A stretch of 64,000 bases of DNA from Caldimonas thermodepolymerans (GTDB lineage: Bacteria; Pseudomonadota; Gammaproteobacteria; Burkholderiales; Burkholderiaceae_C). The notes under the pieces were generated by a model that saw nothing but the letters and a program-made list of their open reading frames with translations, did not search any database and was not told the DNA's origin. Where the stretch lies: the NCBI RefSeq assembly GCF_015476235.1, contig NZ_CP064338.1:372001-436000 (forward strand), written 5' to 3'. A program made the position numbers and the translations under genes. Below, one piece after another: positions 1 to 6,002 of the stretch (within the stretch, counting starts at the first letter, position 1; the number at the start of each line of letters is the position of its first letter).

Positions 1-225
1 GCCGGCCCAGGCCTGCAGCGGCGCGGCAAACCCCGGCGTGGCGGCGGCGAGCTCCGGCAGGCCGTGGTCGCACGGGCCGATCGGGGTGGGCAGGCTGGCG
101 CAGCGCCCGCCGGGGATGCGCTCGCGCTCCAGCACGGTCACGTCGTGGCCGGCCTCCTGCAGCGCGCGGGCGCAGGCCAGCCCGGCCAGCCCGGCGCCGA
201 CGACGGCGATGCGGGCGGCGCTCAT
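1..225 (-). CDS. FAD/NAD(P)-binding oxidoreductase, N-terminal part (cut by window edge)
   Basis: Only the first 75 codons are present; the gene runs off the left edge. The protein opens with a dinucleotide-binding Rossmann motif (VVGAGLAGLACARALQ, from about residue 7), followed by an acidic end to the second beta strand (VLERE) and a GGRC segment, as in renalase and amine-oxidase-like flavoproteins. The ATG (225-223) overlaps the TGA of the upstream NTF2-like gene in an ATGA junction, so translation is probably coupled and the gene is the last visible member of the lipid operon that starts at 4021. The exact reaction cannot be told from this fragment. Confidence 0.75.
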   Translation of the reverse strand, partial: MSAARIAVVGAGLAGLACARALQEAGHDVTVLERERIPGGRCASLPTPIGPCDHGLPELAAATPGFAAPLQAWAG

Positions 226-671
226 GCGGGCTGGACCTTGCGGCGCAGCCAGCGCATCAGGTTGCCGACCAGGGGCAGCTTCTCGTAGAACTGGCCGGCC
301 GCGTCCCAGTAGTCCTCGTGGTCGGTGATGCGCCCCTCGGCGTCGAGCACCAGGTGCGAGGAGCCGCGCACCGACTGCTCTTCCCCGCGGCGGCGGAAGC
401 GGAACTGGAAGGTCCAGGTCAGCACGCAGTGGCTGCCCTGCACGACCGCGCGGGTGATGCAAAAGCGCGGCTCGTCCAGCGTCGCGTACATGTGGGCGTA
501 GATGCGGCGCACCGCGTCGATGCCGCGCACCTCGTTGAACGGGTCCTTGAAGCGGCAGTCGGCGGCGTAGATCTCGCCCAGCCGCTCCAGCGCGGCGGGA
601 CTGAGGCTTTCGAAGTACTGCACCAGCCGGGCGATGCGGGGCTCGCCCACGAGCGTTTCAGTGACGGACAT
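222..671 (-). CDS. NTF2/SnoaL-like domain protein
   Basis: 149 aa, the usual size of a single cone-shaped NTF2/SnoaL-like domain. The pattern LARLYEDDCRFKDPF-like (here IYAADCRFKDPFNEVRG) followed by a run of alternating strands (HCVLTWTFQFRF, SSHLVLDAEGRITDHEDYWDAA) is typical of this fold. Such proteins are often small-molecule isomerases or hydratases, or non-catalytic binding partners; no specific reaction can be assigned. The gene lies 40 bp downstream of the methyltransferase gene and overlaps the next gene by 4 bp, so it belongs to the same operon. NTF2-like proteins are regular companions of DUF1365 and Cfa-like genes in proteobacteria. Confidence 0.8.
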   Translation of the reverse strand: MSVTETLVGEPRIARLVQYFESLSPAALERLGEIYAADCRFKDPFNEVRGIDAVRRIYAHMYATLDEPRFCITRAVVQGSHCVLTWTFQFRFRRRGEEQSVRGSSHLVLDAEGRITDHEDYWDAAGQFYEKLPLVGNLMRWLRRKVQPA

Positions 672-711
672 GCCCGGGAGCTTACCCCGTTGCCGCCGCG
701 GCTGTTACATC

Positions 712-1944
712 TCAGGGCCGGCGCAGCGTGAACTGGACGACGCTGGTGTTGCGCCGGGCAAACGCGGCCTCGCAGTAGGCGAGGTAGAAGGTCCACATGC
801 GCAGGAAGCGCGCGTCGAATCCCAGCGCGCGCACCTGCGGCTCCGCGGCGGTGAAGCGCTCGCGCCAGCGACGCAGCGTCTCGGCGTAGTCGGGGCCGAA
901 GTCCAGCTCGTCGACGATCTCCAGGCCGGCGGCCCGGGCGCGTTCGCGGAACGCCGACGGCGAGGGCAGCAGCCCGCCCGGGAAGATGTACTGCTGGATG
1001 AAGTCGGTCGAGTGCAGGTAGCGCGCGAACAGGTCGTCGCGGATCACGATGGTCTGGATGCAGGCGCGGCCCTGCGGCCTGAGCAGCCGGTGCAGCGCGC
1101 GGAAGTAGGCGTCCCAGTACTCGCGCCCGACGGCCTCGAACATCTCGACCGAGCAGATCGCGTCGAACGGGCCCTCGTCCAGCTCGCGCCAGTCCTGCAG
1201 GCGCAGCTCGACCGACGCGCCCGGCCCGGCGCGCTGCATGGCCTCGCGGCCCCAGGCGAGCTGTTCCTGCGACAGCGTCAGGCCGGTGACGCGTGCCCCG
1301 AAGTCCTGCGCCGCCATCGCGGCGAGGCTGCCCCAGCCGCAGCCGATCTCGAGCAGGCGCTGGCCGGGGCCGATGCCGCACTGCACGAGCGCGCGGCGCA
1401 TCTTGGCGCGCTGCGCGGCCTCCAGCGGGCGGGCGAGGTCGCCCTCGAACCAGGCGCTGGAGTACGACATCGTCGCGTCCAGCCACAGGCGGTAGAAGTC
1501 GTTGCCCAGGTCGTAGTGGGCGTGGATGTTCTTGCGCGCCTGGCGGCGCGAGTTGCGCCGCAGCAGGTGGCGCAGCCGGTACAGCAGGCCGGCCCAGCGG
1601 CTGCCGTAGATCATCGCCTCCAGCTCGTTGCGGTTGAGCAGGAACAGCTCGAGCAGCCCGGCGAGGTCGGGCGAGGACCAGGCGCCGTCCATGTGGCTTT
1701 CGGCAAAGCCGATGTCGCCGGCGCGCAGCGTGCGCGCGCACACCGACCAGTCGTGCAGCTGCAGGCTCGCGTGGGGCGCCGCGCCGCTGCCGAAGCGCAG
1801 CGTGCCGACGCCGGCGGGCAGCTGCACCTCGAGCGTGCCGTGGCGCAGGCGTTGCAGCAGCCGCAGCGCGGCGCGCGCGCTGCGCGGGGCATTGGCGGGC
1901 AGGGAGGCGGCGGCGGGGATCGTGAGGACGTGGCCCTGGGTCAT
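712..1944 (-). CDS. Cyclopropane-fatty-acyl-phospholipid synthase family methyltransferase with altered bicarbonate-site residues
   Basis: 410 aa class I methyltransferase of the CfaA family, which adds a one-carbon unit from S-adenosylmethionine to the double bond of membrane lipid acyl chains. The SAM motif LLEIGCGWG is at residues 197-205, and the family signature HYDLGNDFYRLWLD lies near 143-156. The start was chosen at 1944 because this ATG overlaps the TGA of the DUF1365 gene. Compared with what I recall of E. coli Cfa, the bicarbonate ligands Glu and Tyr are kept (E267, Y353), but the Cys of the YSCAY motif is Ser163 and the His of the LLHTI motif is Gln297. This suggests chemistry other than plain cyclopropanation, for example formation of a methylated or methylene fatty acid. 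The family call is firm; the exact product is an inference. Confidence 0.88.
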   Translation of the reverse strand: MTQGHVLTIPAAASLPANAPRSARAALRLLQRLRHGTLEVQLPAGVGTLRFGSGAAPHASLQLHDWSVCARTLRAGDIGFAESHMDGAWSSPDLAGLLELFLLNRNELEAMIYGSRWAGLLYRLRHLLRRNSRRQARKNIHAHYDLGNDFYRLWLDATMSYSSAWFEGDLARPLEAAQRAKMRRALVQCGIGPGQRLLEIGCGWGSLAAMAAQDFGARVTGLTLSQEQLAWGREAMQRAGPGASVELRLQDWRELDEGPFDAICSVEMFEAVGREYWDAYFRALHRLLRPQGRACIQTIVIRDDLFARYLHSTDFIQQYIFPGGLLPSPSAFRERARAAGLEIVDELDFGPDYAETLRRWRERFTAAEPQVRALGFDARFLRMWTFYLAYCEAAFARRNTSVVQFTLRRP

Positions 1945-2711
1945 CGCGAGACGAAGCGGTCGGGAGCGGCGGGTTTGGTGAAGAACGGCACGCGCTTGAG
2001 CCACAGCTTCAGCGCGTGCCAGTGGATGCGGGCGATCACGCCGAAGCCGACCGCGGGCGCGCCCCAGGCGGCGCGGCGGATCGCCGCGGCCGACAGCGGC
2101 TCGAGCGTGCCGCTCCAGCTGGTCTGCAGCAGCGGCCCGTCGTGGTCGTCCAGGTCCACGCGCACCACGCAGCGCCCGGCGTGCCGCGGGGCGTCGGCCG
2201 TGGTGCGCAGGAAGCGGAACCGGTAGCGCCCCTCGACGCGGCAGAACGGCGAGACATGGAACACCTTGCGCGCGCGCAGCTCGGCGCCCCAGGCCAGCTG
2301 CGGGCCGTCGAGCAGGTAGCAGTGGCGCTCGCCGAAGGTGTTGTTGACCTCGGCGACGATGGCGGCGAGCCGCCCGTCGGCCCGGTGTGCGTACCAGAAG
2401 CTGACCGGCTTGAACGCGTAGCCGAGGATGCGCGGGTAGGTCTGCAGCCAGATCTCGCCGTCGGCCGCGATGCCTTCGGCGGCGAGCAGCGCCTCCATCC
2501 AGGCCAGCGCGTCCTCGCCGCCTGCGCCGTGGTCGCGGTCGTGGAACGACAGCAGCGCGAACCGGTTGCGCGCCAGCACCGGGTCGGGCGCCTCGCGCAG
2601 CGCGCGCATCGGCAACATGAGGAAGCTGGTCGGGTGCGCGAAGGCGTGCCGCACCGGGCGCAGCCGGGTGTGGCGCACCTGCCCGAAGGCGATCAGCGCG
2701 CGCGCGCTCAT
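1941..2711 (-). CDS. DUF1365 family protein
   Basis: 256 aa DUF1365 protein, a family of unknown biochemical function that almost always sits between a flavin amine-oxidase-like gene and a Cfa-like gene. Recognisable conserved stretches are RHTRLRPVRHAFAH near the N terminus, PRILGYAFKPVSFWY in the middle, and EVNNTFGERHCYLL. The start at 2711 is fixed by the ATGA overlap with the upstream flavoprotein gene; the open frame continues upstream but would then lie inside that gene. The downstream methyltransferase is also coupled through an ATGA junction. A role in making or handling an unusual fatty acid is inferred from this context only. Confidence 0.88.
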   Translation of the reverse strand: MSARALIAFGQVRHTRLRPVRHAFAHPTSFLMLPMRALREAPDPVLARNRFALLSFHDRDHGAGGEDALAWMEALLAAEGIAADGEIWLQTYPRILGYAFKPVSFWYAHRADGRLAAIVAEVNNTFGERHCYLLDGPQLAWGAELRARKVFHVSPFCRVEGRYRFRFLRTTADAPRHAGRCVVRVDLDDHDGPLLQTSWSGTLEPLSAAAIRRAAWGAPAVGFGVIARIHWHALKLWLKRVPFFTKPAAPDRFVSR

Positions 2712-4021
2712 GCGGCCTCCCGGGTGGTCGTCCCGGCGGTGCCGAGGCGCTCGCGCAACCGCCGTGCGACCTCCAGGCCCGACTTCAGCCCGTCCTCGTG
2801 GAAGCCGTAGCCGGTCCAGGCGCCGCAGTACCAGCTGTGCCGCACGCCCTGCAGCGCCGGCACCTCCTGCTGGGCGCGGATCGCCGCGAGGTCGAACACC
2901 GAGTGACGGTACTCGAACTCGGCCAGCACGCACTCCGGCCGCGGCTCGCGCGCCGGGTTGAGCGTGACGATCACCGGCTGCGTGAACGGCAGCGGCTGCA
3001 GGCGGTTGATCAGGTAATGCAGGCAGACCCCGGCGCGCTCCTGGCCGGCATCGGCGGCGCGCTCGTAGTTCCATGCCGCCCAGGCGCGGCGGTGGCGCGG
3101 CAGCAGCGCGGTGTCGGTGTGCAGCACGGCGCGGTTGCTGCGGCAGGCGATGCGCCCGAGCACCGCGCGCTCGGCCTCGGTCGGCTGGGCGAGCAGCGCC
3201 AGCGCCTGGTCGGCGTGGCAGGCGAACACCACCTGGTCGTAGCGCTCCGCGCCCTGGTCGGTCAGCACCTGTACGCCGCCGCCCGGGGCGGCGTCGCGCT
3301 CGACGCGGCGCACCGGCGTGGCGCGCCGCGCGTCGGGCAGGCGCTGCAGCATGCGTTCGACGTAGGTGCGCGCGCCCCCGGTCACGGTGTACCACTGGGG
3401 CCGGTTGGCGATCTGGATCAGGCCGTGGTTGTGGCAGAAGCGGATCAGGGTCGCGACCGGGAAGCGCAGCATCTGCTCGGTCGGGCAGGACCAGATGCAG
3501 CCGAGCATGGGCAGCAGGTACCAGTCGCAGAACGCGGCGCTGAAGCGGTGCCGGCGCAGGAAGTCGCCCAGCGGCTCGTGCAGCTCGGCTTCGGCGTGGC
3601 GCAGCGCGATGCCCTGCGCCAGTCGGTTGAAGCGCAGCAGGTCGGCCAGCATCCGCCAGAAGCGCGGGCGCACCAGGTTCACCGGCTGCGCGAACACGGT
3701 CGCGAGGTTGCTGCCGCTCCATTCCAGCTGCAGCGTGGGCACCTGCACCGAGAACGACATGTCCGACGGCGTCGTGTGCACGCCCAGCTCGTCGAACAGC
3801 GCGACCAGCTGAGGGTAGGTGCGGTGGTTGAAGACCAGGAAGCCGGTGTCCACCCCGTGCGTGACCGGGCCGCGGGGCCCCGGCAGGGTCACGTCGACCG
3901 TGTGGACGTGGCCTCCGAAGTGATCGGCCGCTTCGTACAGCGTGACCCGGGCATGCGGCTGCAGGTGGTAGGCCGCGGCCAGTCCGGCAATGCCCGATCC
4001 GATGACGGCGATGCGCTGCAT
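2708..4021 (-). CDS. FAD-dependent amine-oxidase-like oxidoreductase of the Cfa cluster
   Basis: 437 aa flavoprotein, first gene of the minus-strand lipid operon. The N terminus has the FAD-binding Rossmann motif IAVIGSGIAGLAAAY (residues 4-18), followed by LYEAADHFGGHVHT, the typical amine-oxidase/phytoene-desaturase type dinucleotide region. A C-terminal FAD-contact region with CGAWTGYGFHEDGLKSG is present near residue 400. Proteins of this group accompany Cfa-like methyltransferases, and in the Rhodobacter furan fatty acid pathway a flavoprotein of this kind acts as a lipid desaturase (UfaD, from memory). A lipid dehydrogenase role here is therefore plausible but unproven. The next gene overlaps by ATGA. 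Confidence 0.85.
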   Translation of the reverse strand: MQRIAVIGSGIAGLAAAYHLQPHARVTLYEAADHFGGHVHTVDVTLPGPRGPVTHGVDTGFLVFNHRTYPQLVALFDELGVHTTPSDMSFSVQVPTLQLEWSGSNLATVFAQPVNLVRPRFWRMLADLLRFNRLAQGIALRHAEAELHEPLGDFLRRHRFSAAFCDWYLLPMLGCIWSCPTEQMLRFPVATLIRFCHNHGLIQIANRPQWYTVTGGARTYVERMLQRLPDARRATPVRRVERDAAPGGGVQVLTDQGAERYDQVVFACHADQALALLAQPTEAERAVLGRIACRSNRAVLHTDTALLPRHRRAWAAWNYERAADAGQERAGVCLHYLINRLQPLPFTQPVIVTLNPAREPRPECVLAEFEYRHSVFDLAAIRAQQEVPALQGVRHSWYCGAWTGYGFHEDGLKSGLEVARRLRERLGTAGTTTREAA

Positions 4022-4127
4022 GCGGTCGACTCAGCCGGTGCCGCCGCCGTGCAGGCAAACGAAAGGCGGCACGGTCTGCACCGTGCCGCCGGTAGAGAAA
4101 AACGCCGCGGAGCGTCCCAGAGCGAAC

Positions 4128-4154
4128 GAGGGAGGGAGGGAGGAGGAGGAAAAA
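4128..4154 (+). other. Homopurine GGGA-repeat tract with G-quadruplex potential
   Basis: Uninterrupted purines over 27 nt on the plus strand: three GGG runs at 4130-4132, 4134-4136 and 4138-4140, then three GG runs spaced by single A, then an A run. The tract lies 107-133 bp upstream of the start codon of the lipid operon, on its non-template strand complement (the operon mRNA would carry the pyrimidine version). It could form a quadruplex or triplex or simply be a slippage-prone repeat. Confidence 0.5.
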
Positions 4155-4586
4155 CGCCCTGGGATTGCAACCGGATGGACCGGAAGGCTCCGCAGCTCAA
4201 AACCTGTGTCGACCGTCCTTGGCGCCGTCCACCGGGGACGTTGGCCGCCGCCTTGGCGCCGCAGTGGCTCCCACCCTGACTGGTGCAGCGTTGGAAAGGG
4301 GCCGCGGCGGAAAGTTCCCCGAAATACTTTCGATGTGAAGCAACGGTGGAAATTGTCGCGCGCTCGCGGCGTTTGCGGGAGGGAGCGATCCTTGCTGGCC
4401 ATCAAGTCTGTGCGAAATGTGGAACAGATCGGGGTGATGGACGGGCGCCAGGGCCACATCGGGCGCCAATTGTGACCGACACAAGACCCTGCGCTGCACA
4501 AGGTTACATGGTTCTGCACCGGCCCGGCAGCCCCGGCCCGACCCTGGCGTCCGCTTGGCCATTGGGCGCGCGCGGTCAGGATCCGG

Positions 4587-4630
4587 GACAATGTCGGGTT
4601 GGGTGCGGCCGGCTGCGGGCGGCCGCACCC
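4587..4630 (+). promoter_or_regulatory. Candidate -10 element and 5'-leader hairpin of the di-iron protein gene
   Basis: GACAAT at 4587-4592 could be a -10 box; no good -35 hexamer is seen at 16-18 bp. About seven bases downstream begins a perfect 10-bp inverted repeat, GGGTGCGGCC (4601-4610) and GGCCGCACCC (4621-4630), with a 10-nt loop. If transcription starts near 4599, the mRNA would begin with this hairpin, a layout that often protects transcripts. A Shine-Dalgarno AGGA follows at about 4655-4658. The hairpin is seen directly; the promoter is tentative. Confidence 0.4.
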
Positions 4631-4664
4631 GCCTTCTCCCGCTTTCACGTCGACAGGAACATTG

Positions 4665-5525
4665 ATGCTGTACCCCGAGCTCTTCAAACAACTCGAAGCC
4701 GTGCGCTGGAACATGGAACGCGACATTCCATGGGACCAGTTCGACGGCAGCAAGCTCAGCGAGGAGCAGGCGCAGACCGTCAAGATGAACGCCATCACCG
4801 AGTGGGCGGCGCTGCCGGCCACCGAGATGTTCCTGCGCGACAACCGCGACGACAGCGACTTCTCGGCCTTCATCAGCGTCTGGTTCTTCGAGGAACAGAA
4901 GCACTCGCTGGTGCTGATGGAGTACCTGCGCCGCTTCCGCCCCGAGCTGGTGCCCACCGAACAGGAGCTGCACGAGGTGCGCTTCGAGTTCGACCCGGCG
5001 CCGGCGCTGGAGACGCTGATGCTGCACTTCTGCGGCGAGGTGCGCCTGAACCACTGGTACCGTCGTGCCGCGCAGTGGCACACCGAGCCGGTCATCAAGG
5101 CGATCTACGAGACGCTGGCGCGCGACGAGGCCCGCCACGGCGGCGCCTACCTGCGCTACATGAAGCGCGCGATCAACCGCTTCGGCGACGAGGCGCGCGC
5201 CGCCTTCGCCAAGGTCGGCGTGCTGATGGCCAGCGCGCGCCGCACCGCGCAGGCGCTGCACCCGACCAACCTGCACGTCAACGAGAAGCTGTTCCCGCGC
5301 GACACCGTGCAGAGCCGCCTGCCCGACCCCGAATGGCTGGAGCGCTGGCTGGACAAGCAGATCCAGTTCGACGCCAGCTGGGAGACCAAGGTGGTCGAGC
5401 GCATCCTGCACAACCTGAGCCTGCTGATGGAGCGCAGCTTCAAGACCGTGCAGGAGCTCAACCGCTTCCGCAAGGAGCTGGCGGCGCAGCTGGCTGCGCA
5501 GCAGCCCGTGCCGCAGGCCGGCTGA
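4665..5525 (+). CDS. Ferritin-like di-iron protein of the acyl-ACP-desaturase superfamily
   Basis: 286 aa mostly helical protein with the ligand pattern of a carboxylate-bridged di-iron enzyme: Glu46 (TEWAALP), Glu76/Glu77 with His80 (FFEEQKH), Glu125 (CGEVRLNHW) and Glu155 with His158 (ARDEARHGG). The two ExxH motifs about 78 residues apart match acyl-ACP desaturases and related ferritin-like oxygenases. The ATG at 4665 was chosen over an upstream in-frame ATG (4599) because AGGA sits seven bases before it and the upstream part lies in a hairpin. The gene stands alone, ends in a strong terminator, and is divergent from the Cfa-like operon, which hints at an oxygen-dependent step on fatty acids. 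The substrate is not known. Confidence 0.75.
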   Translation: MLYPELFKQLEAVRWNMERDIPWDQFDGSKLSEEQAQTVKMNAITEWAALPATEMFLRDNRDDSDFSAFISVWFFEEQKHSLVLMEYLRRFRPELVPTEQELHEVRFEFDPAPALETLMLHFCGEVRLNHWYRRAAQWHTEPVIKAIYETLARDEARHGGAYLRYMKRAINRFGDEARAAFAKVGVLMASARRTAQALHPTNLHVNEKLFPRDTVQSRLPDPEWLERWLDKQIQFDASWETKVVERILHNLSLLMERSFKTVQELNRFRKELAAQLAAQQPVPQAG

Positions 5526-5554
5526 CCGGGTCTTCGCCCGTCCACCTCCTGTCC

Positions 5555-5580
5555 AAGGCGCCGCACGCGGCGCCTTTTTC
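5555..5580 (+). terminator. Rho-independent terminator after the di-iron protein gene
   Basis: A 9-bp perfect stem, AAGGCGCCG (5555-5563) with CGGCGCCTT (5568-5576), loop CACG, followed by a T run ending at 5579. It lies 30 bp downstream of the stop codon. Confidence 0.85.
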
Positions 5581-5687
5581 GTGTCCGGGCGGTGACCTTG
5601 CAGCGCATGGGTGGTTGCCGCGCCACGGCCGCACGGACGCAGGCGCCTTCCTACACTGGCGCCTTCGCGTCACTTCGGACCTCGCAG

Positions 5688-6002
5688 ATGCCCTGGATCA
5701 TCCTTTTCCTCGCCGGCTTGCTGGAAATCACCTGGGCGGTCGGCCTCAAGTACACCGAAGGCTTCAGCCGCCCGCTGCCCACGGCCCTCACGGTGGTGGC
5801 GATGGTCGCCAGCGTGGTGCTGCTGGGCCTGGCCGTGCGGCACCTGCCGGTGGGCACGGCCTATGCCGTGTGGACCGGCATCGGCGCGGTCGGCACCGCG
5901 ATCTGCGGCATCCTGCTGTTCGGCGATGCGGCCACCCCGGCGCGGCTGGCCTGCCTGGGGCTGGTCGTGGTCGGCATCATCGGGCTCAAGCTGGTCAGCT
6001 GA
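5688..6002 (+). CDS. gdx: Small multidrug resistance family guanidinium exporter Gdx (SugE)
   Basis: 104 aa, four transmembrane helices, the standard SMR length. The N terminus [21 protein letters not shown] carries the essential membrane Glu13, and the WAVGLKYT and [17 protein letters not shown] segments match the Gdx/SugE subtype rather than EmrE. Gdx proteins are dimeric antiporters that export guanidinium in exchange for protons. The ATG at 5688 aligns with the E. coli start; upstream codons are not family-like. I looked for a guanidine riboswitch in the leader (5581-5687) and did not recognise one. The 3' end overlaps the convergent rhombosortase gene by 8 bp. Confidence 0.93.

Follow-up and report, generated by a model that had tools for sequence, protein, structure and literature searches.

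Which lipid is made by a cluster of fatty-acid-modifying genes at one end of a 64,000-nucleotide stretch of the Caldimonas thermodepolymerans genome, and does a divergently oriented di-iron gene beside the cluster take part in making it? The stretch analyzed (the window) covers positions 372001-436000 of a single-contig 3.86-Mb genome. Plants, fish, and microbes all contain furan fatty acids, to which a membrane-protecting role is ascribed. Family membership, gene order, and active-site residues indicate that the minus-strand genes very likely form a furan fatty-acid operon. The operon is of a known kind, and the di-iron neighbor and a structured RNA lying between the two both have real comparative support. 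The features, in window coordinates, are as follows.

2708..4021, minus strand: UfaD-like FAD protein of the amine-oxidase family, 437 aa, heading the putative operon (Pfam Amino_oxidase, 78.3 bits)
1941..2711, minus strand: UfaO-like DUF1365 protein, 256 aa (Pfam DUF1365, 259.6 bits against a cutoff of 25)
712..1944, minus strand: UfaM-like, CMAS-family S-adenosylmethionine (SAM) methyltransferase, 410 aa (Pfam CMAS, 291 bits; residue signature; clade support 0.989)
222..671, minus strand: SnoaL/NTF2-like protein, 149 aa (Pfam SnoaL_2, 69.6 bits; position in relatives)
1..225, minus strand: second FAD/NAD-binding protein, 319 aa, 5' part inside the window (whole gene at L005:11266-12225)
4665..5525, plus strand: di-iron ferritin-like protein, 286 aa, divergent from the operon (Pfam FA_desaturase_2; ligands; predicted fold; conserved neighbor)
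4090..4205, minus strand: structured RNA element, probable small-RNA gene (covariation; G-U versus A-C cells; model R1)

A probable furan fatty-acid operon

Passages of the 2020 report on the bacterial enzymes of this pathway describe UfaM, UfaD (RSP1091), and UfaO (RSP1090) of Rhodobacter sphaeroides as producing the furan fatty acid 9M5-FuFA; UfaO has a DUF1365 domain, and 18O2 labeling showed that the ring oxygen derives from O2 (PMC7380195). According to the same passages, ufaM, ufaD, and ufaO of Rhodopseudomonas palustris are together enough for furan acid production in an R. sphaeroides triple mutant, and RSP1087-1089 are dispensable for furan synthesis in R. sphaeroides (PMC7380195). 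The gene set ufaD-ufaO-ufaM has already been described (PMC7380195, PMC12089945).

The DUF1365 protein of the window belongs to the UfaO family, and the amine-oxidase-like FAD gene is coupled upstream of it through a 4-bp overlap. A first-pass annotation of this DNA compared the cluster with UfaM and UfaD but overlooked DUF1365 as the UfaO family, with which the O2-using step already has an enzyme. DUF1365 matches of the ufaO kind were found in 92 of the 299 genomes of a phylum-wide sample. A ufaD relative lies beside the ufaO match in all 39 of the phylum-wide loci that were fetched, and the methyltransferase is also present in 33 of these.

In Escherichia coli Cfa, the proton-accepting bicarbonate interacts with Glu239, His266, and Tyr317, according to passages of PMC11387697. 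In the window protein, His266 is replaced by Gln while the equivalents of Glu239 and Tyr317 are retained. Ser is found at the position of E. coli Cys139, which we take to be a further active-site position, and the full signature reads Ser/Glu/Gln/Ile/Tyr. We compared 111 CMAS proteins encoded at most 2 kb from a ufaO match (45 from named relatives, 33 from other relatives together with the window, and 33 from the phylum-wide set), not all of which are independent since some genomes were entered twice (G004/L108, G005/L107, and G007/L112). Gln occupies position 266 in 110 of the 111, the last row having failed to align, and position 139 in those 110 is Ser in 97, Ala in 8, Gly in 4, and Cys in 1; the window protein shares its active-site signature with the other methyltransferases found next to ufaO. 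In a FastTree phylogeny of 118 proteins, which omits one row (L197_5022) and contains the window's protein twice, those 110 and the second entry of the window protein form a clade that excludes the Cfa of E. coli, the one from the window's genome, and five further Cfa-like proteins, with a support of 0.989. The genome's own Cfa, the only other full-length one, is encoded at 3.26 Mb and has the canonical residues; two more Cfa-family matches in the genome are weak (36 and 29 bits).

The proposal of a remodeled Cfa-like methyltransferase is supported by the change at the bicarbonate site. Together with the clade shared with ufaO-adjacent enzymes, this change also supports the wider proposal that the cluster modifies fatty acids in the manner of UfaM and UfaD and not by forming cyclopropanes. 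The active-site change common to the 110 aligned proteins also offers a simple genome marker that separates furan pathways from cyclopropane synthases. A second Cfa-like methyltransferase is present near ufaM in five loci (L200, L204, L208, L214, and L215), with His266 kept and Phe replacing Ile268; as a guess, it might act like FufM in making dimethyl furans.

In the proposed pathway, UfaM would add a methyl group to a cis-unsaturated acyl chain already present in a phospholipid. Because bicarbonate-site residues are changed, its product would probably be a methyl-branched trans-olefin and not a ring; the residue change is observed, and its consequence is what we infer. UfaD would then desaturate the methylated chain to a conjugated diene and UfaO would close the furan ring with O2, two steps that were shown for the R. 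sphaeroides proteins and that the window proteins may be expected to share. The resulting furan lipid would probably protect membranes from singlet oxygen and comparable oxidants.

Two other explanations of the cluster have to be weighed. Gene 712-1944 could encode an ordinary cyclopropane fatty-acid synthase within a cluster unrelated to furans, as its CMAS family membership would allow and as its best NCBIfam models, which are cyclopropane synthases, would suggest, though these score only 266 against a cutoff of 600 and 262 against a cutoff of 400. The substitutions at both His266 and Cys139, the separate canonical Cfa, and the position of the gene next to ufaO and ufaD lead us to reject this explanation as highly improbable. 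The other possibility arises from the extended operon that many relatives carry, ufaD-ufaO-ufaM-chalcone-isomerase-like (CHI)-MFS-DUF3833-SDR-SnoaL, of which the SnoaL-like gene is the last member. Without the CHI, MFS, DUF3833, and SDR genes, the pathway could be truncated or redirected and end at a methylated unsaturated acid; the gap between ufaM and the SnoaL gene is only 40 bp here, compared to several intervening genes in many relatives, and DUF3833 was not found in the window's own genome, in a search that had no control match. This too appears improbable given that ufaD and ufaO are intact, that RSP1087-1089 are not needed in R. sphaeroides according to the passages cited above, and that some congeners are without the same genes (L067, L069, and L072).

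Several points do weigh against a furan operon. Orthology to the experimentally established proteins of R. sphaeroides and R. palustris would rest on family, gene order, and active-site signature, and passages of PMC12089945 report that Halomonas UfaM in E. coli yielded 11-methyloctadec-12-enoate but that cyclic fatty acids were detected too. Varying sets of genes accompany the longer operon of relatives, coding for a MerR protein that carries B12-binding domains, for FolE2, for glutathione peroxidase (GPX), and for a photolyase-related protein, and relatives of the window have a LitR-like MerR and CryB beside the ufa genes. The window's genome gave no match to a LitR-like MerR (one relative's protein as the query, with no positive control), to the photolyase-related protein DPRP, to DUF3833 (likewise with no positive control), or to the ChrR anti-sigma factor, whose model did match in Caulobacter. 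Regulation may therefore differ, and the operon is shortened.

The remaining layout agrees with the first-pass annotation: four coupled genes followed by a second FAD/NAD-binding protein, with a divergent di-iron gene, are borne out by coordinates, overlaps, and Pfam matches. The overlaps between the DUF1365 and Cfa-like genes and between the SnoaL and second FAD genes are also of 4 bp, and the families above their Pfam cutoffs are DUF1365, CMAS, Amino_oxidase, SnoaL_2, and, for the di-iron protein, FA_desaturase_2. The second FAD/NAD-binding gene extends ∼0.73 kb beyond the left end of the window and lies next to the operon chiefly in congeners (L067-L072, which are 6 of the 8 loci from congeners; also L113); an identification as HpnE was rejected at 50 bits against a cutoff of 283. 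The open reading frame list places the start of the di-iron gene at an upstream TTG; the ATG that is conserved lies at 4665. At 66 bp beyond the di-iron gene lies a gene for a small multidrug resistance protein (5592-6002, from the first listed start), which is there in 4 of the 8 congener loci.

The di-iron protein and its neighbors

All of the ligands named in the first-pass annotation are present. E46, E77/H80, E125, and E155/H158 lie on a four-helix bundle in the pattern E, ExxH, E, ExxH and are invariant in an alignment of 19 sequences, the window's included, except for a change of E77 to Gln in one paralog. That diverged paralog (L099:8211-9044, 67% identical) has no ufa gene within the fetched stretch. 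The Pfam acyl-acyl carrier protein (ACP) desaturase family PF03405 scores 31.0 bits against a cutoff of 22.7, yet the match covers just 51 of the 325 profile positions; all 19 aligned members match this profile at an E value of 0.1 or better. By sequence alone, the best PDB match is a designed helix bundle (E = 1e-4), followed by DesA2 (0.0085) and plant desaturases (0.04 to 0.23). The predicted model, which has low confidence at residues 194-199 and 204-209, suggests a fold like that of acyl-ACP desaturases or of R2-like ligand-binding oxidase (R2lox). An assignment as encapsulin ferritin was rejected at 22.6 bits against a cutoff of 125. Among the literature matches listed, in titles and abstract beginnings, there is no earlier mention of this gene, work on LitR in Burkholderia multivorans and Pseudomonas putida lying outside that scope.

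The co-occurrence of the di-iron gene with the cluster, which the first-pass annotation had named as a check of its proposal, is found in other genomes. Both the di-iron gene and ufaO were present in 28 genomes of a 60-genome sample, within ∼6 kb of each other in 24 of the 28 (counted by hand). A sample of 200 genomes of the order, in which partial matches at E 1e-20 are included, had both genes in 60 genomes, the di-iron gene only in 24, ufaO only in 31, and neither in 85; in 16 of the 31, the DUF1365 match is weak (E 2e-65 or worse) and may represent a different group of DUF1365 proteins. The two genes lie within 10 kb in 37 of the 60 genomes with both, far apart on the same contig in 4, and on different contigs in 19. 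The 37 linked pairs show two orientations: 29, from 13 families, are divergent as in the window, and in 8 (families f4, f18, and f19) the di-iron gene lies downstream on the operon strand, 112 bp past the operon's last gene in L089 (f4) and 65 bp past it in L090 (f18). A Fisher test for linkage gave p = 3e-10 with relatedness ignored, and better evidence comes from the two arrangements in 15 families and the differing outer flanks. In the window's family the outer flanks are corA and glnE, neither of which recurs at the di-iron loci fetched from other families; the pair thus stays together in different surroundings.

A required role of the protein in the pathway is not supported. The di-iron gene was found in only 5 of the 92 phylum-sample genomes with ufaO matches and is absent from the other 87 (it occurs in 9 genomes of its phylum sample, which coincides with that for ufaO as far as shown), and 24 of the 84 order-sample genomes that have it carry no ufaO. 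We also fetched 66 di-iron loci, a non-random set in which 14 were picked for having the two genes close together and 20 for lacking this proximity, so that only breadth across families counts; the set comprises 27 families with the G006 paralog as its own family and 26 without it. In this set, ufaO lies within the stretch in 37 loci (15 families). The di-iron gene is followed on its own strand by rfaE2 in 34 loci (20 families), with a gap of at most 300 bp in 27, and is preceded on that strand by a LitR-like MerR no more than 3 kb away in 17 (10 families). The product of rfaE2, a Pfam CTP_transf_like protein, is presumably heptose-1-phosphate adenylyltransferase. The di-iron gene and rfaE2 overlap by 4 bp in L090 (9165-10528) and are 12 bp apart in L089 (8828-10198).

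Two alternative roles follow from these neighborhoods. The di-iron protein could be an extra pathway enzyme, making or further oxidizing the acyl chain used by UfaM, UfaD, and UfaO, as the linkage to ufaO, the downstream position on the operon strand in 8 genomes, and the predicted fold would allow; its absence from nearly all phylum-wide ufaO genomes, its occurrence without ufaO, and the sufficiency of the three R. palustris genes in the passages of PMC7380195 make this unlikely, and the idea of a needed pathway step is not supported, with rfaE2 as a neighbor in 20 families as a further reason. Alternatively, the protein could be a cell-envelope partner of rfaE2, and the ufa/LitR island would then merely have settled beside that pair. 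The breadth and tightness of the rfaE2 pairing favor this, as does its persistence in 15 of the 29 fetched loci holding no ufaO, which may point to a di-iron role outside furan lipids. Nevertheless, rfaE2 is not adjacent to the di-iron gene in the window, the predicted fold does not suggest a sugar substrate, and the LitR-like MerR stands upstream in 10 families, and we regard the envelope role as rather doubtful.

Our tentative preference, held at somewhat less than even confidence, is for a companion role: the di-iron protein, found almost exclusively in Burkholderiales, would most likely be an oxidase or desaturase that activates O2 and modifies acyl chains or some related substrate, without being required for furan synthesis. 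The rfaE2 pairing without ufaO tells against this preference, as does a fold comparison (VIA-align) of the predicted model in which acyl-ACP desaturase ties with R2lox. More speculatively, and with considerable doubt, the protein may represent an undescribed soluble di-iron oxidase family, nearly restricted to Burkholderiales, that modifies membrane acyl chains as one element of a light and singlet-oxygen defense in which photolyase, furan fatty acids, and a photosensor of the LitR type also take part; in one family of these bacteria, the region also holds a conserved small RNA whose anti-Shine-Dalgarno loop may serve to adjust it posttranscriptionally.

A structured RNA in the shared intergenic region

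The intergenic region shared by the operon and the di-iron gene, noted in the first-pass annotation, is present at 4022-4664 but is not empty. Nucleotide comparison with congeners revealed a conserved element at 4090-4205, whose RNA would form a long outer stem, with a T-run behind it that makes the 3' end terminator-like, and an inner hairpin with the C-rich loop CCTCCTCCTCCCTCCCTCCC, which, as read from its letters, is complementary to Shine-Dalgarno sequences. The consensus from 44 aligned sequences has 24 pairs, 21 of which show changes on both sides (compensatory), the structure being derived from the same alignment used to count pairs. Paired cells amount to 93.9%, compared to 79.8% in shuffles, which leave relatedness in, and 40-49% with partners slid. 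With one mostly U-G pair excluded, G-U cells outnumber A-C cells by 76 to 15, which identifies the minus strand as the RNA, and the folding energy is -44.5 kcal/mol (z = -3.7).

A covariance model (R1) found a single copy in 6 of the 200 order genomes, 5 of them of the window's family in the sample and 1 of family f8, and one copy in the window's genome; the order search used strict filters with 18 candidates scored per genome, so that weak copies may be missed. The RNA was found in 54 of 80 loci of named relatives, one copy being cut off, and in none of 40 phylum-wide loci. There is no Rfam family at threshold at the element, and three subthreshold Rfam matches in 3800-5700 were treated as chance. 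We considered a leader of ufaD, but no ufaO was present in the stretch examined in 20 of the 54 loci with the RNA, and in L264 and L265 the RNA is close to glnE, those short stretches containing no ufa gene and no di-iron gene. An independent small-RNA gene of the region is therefore the more likely assignment, and the element is probably one. CcsR-type RNAs of Rhodobacter, which have a C-rich loop as well, were considered as possible relatives.

Remains of MerR, CryB, or GPX genes in the intergenic region were not accepted, the matches being short (MerR, 36% over 33 aa, E = 0.002); in this permissive translated search, made without composition correction, the best among the matches listed was an unrelated PepP (E = 1e-4). 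Short CryB-like fragments lie 86-293 bases before the di-iron gene in L071 and are possibly remains of a lost photolyase-related gene.

Comparison with known systems

The di-iron protein is only distantly similar to characterized enzymes, with 14-16% identity to plant stearoyl-ACP desaturases and Mycobacterium tuberculosis DesA2 and ∼14% to R2lox; the plant enzymes are also longer, at ∼340 aa compared to 286 aa. The island of the window's relatives resembles the LitR-regulon operon of Pseudomonas mendocina, described in passages of PMC9758184 as a light-induced nine-gene operon in which ufaM occurs with an FAD oxidoreductase, an SDR protein, and a photolyase, although the window's genome gave no MerR or photolyase-related match.

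For the operon, the likenesses are drawn from published descriptions. R. sphaeroides has the same UfaD, UfaO (DUF1365), and UfaM (RSP1091-1087 and RSP2144), there shown by mutants and enzyme assays (PMC7380195), but its ufaM lies elsewhere in the genome (PMC12089945) and loss of chrR raises furan acid, whereas no ChrR match was obtained here. Halomonas sp. YLGW01 has ufaD-ufaO-ufaM as three consecutive genes as in the window, with no di-iron partner mentioned in the passages of PMC12089945. In R. palustris, where the literature passages on the ufa genes likewise do not mention a di-iron gene, RPA2571-2570-2569 (ufaD-ufaO-ufaM) encode the same three families and, by locus numbers, in the same order as the window (PMC7380195).

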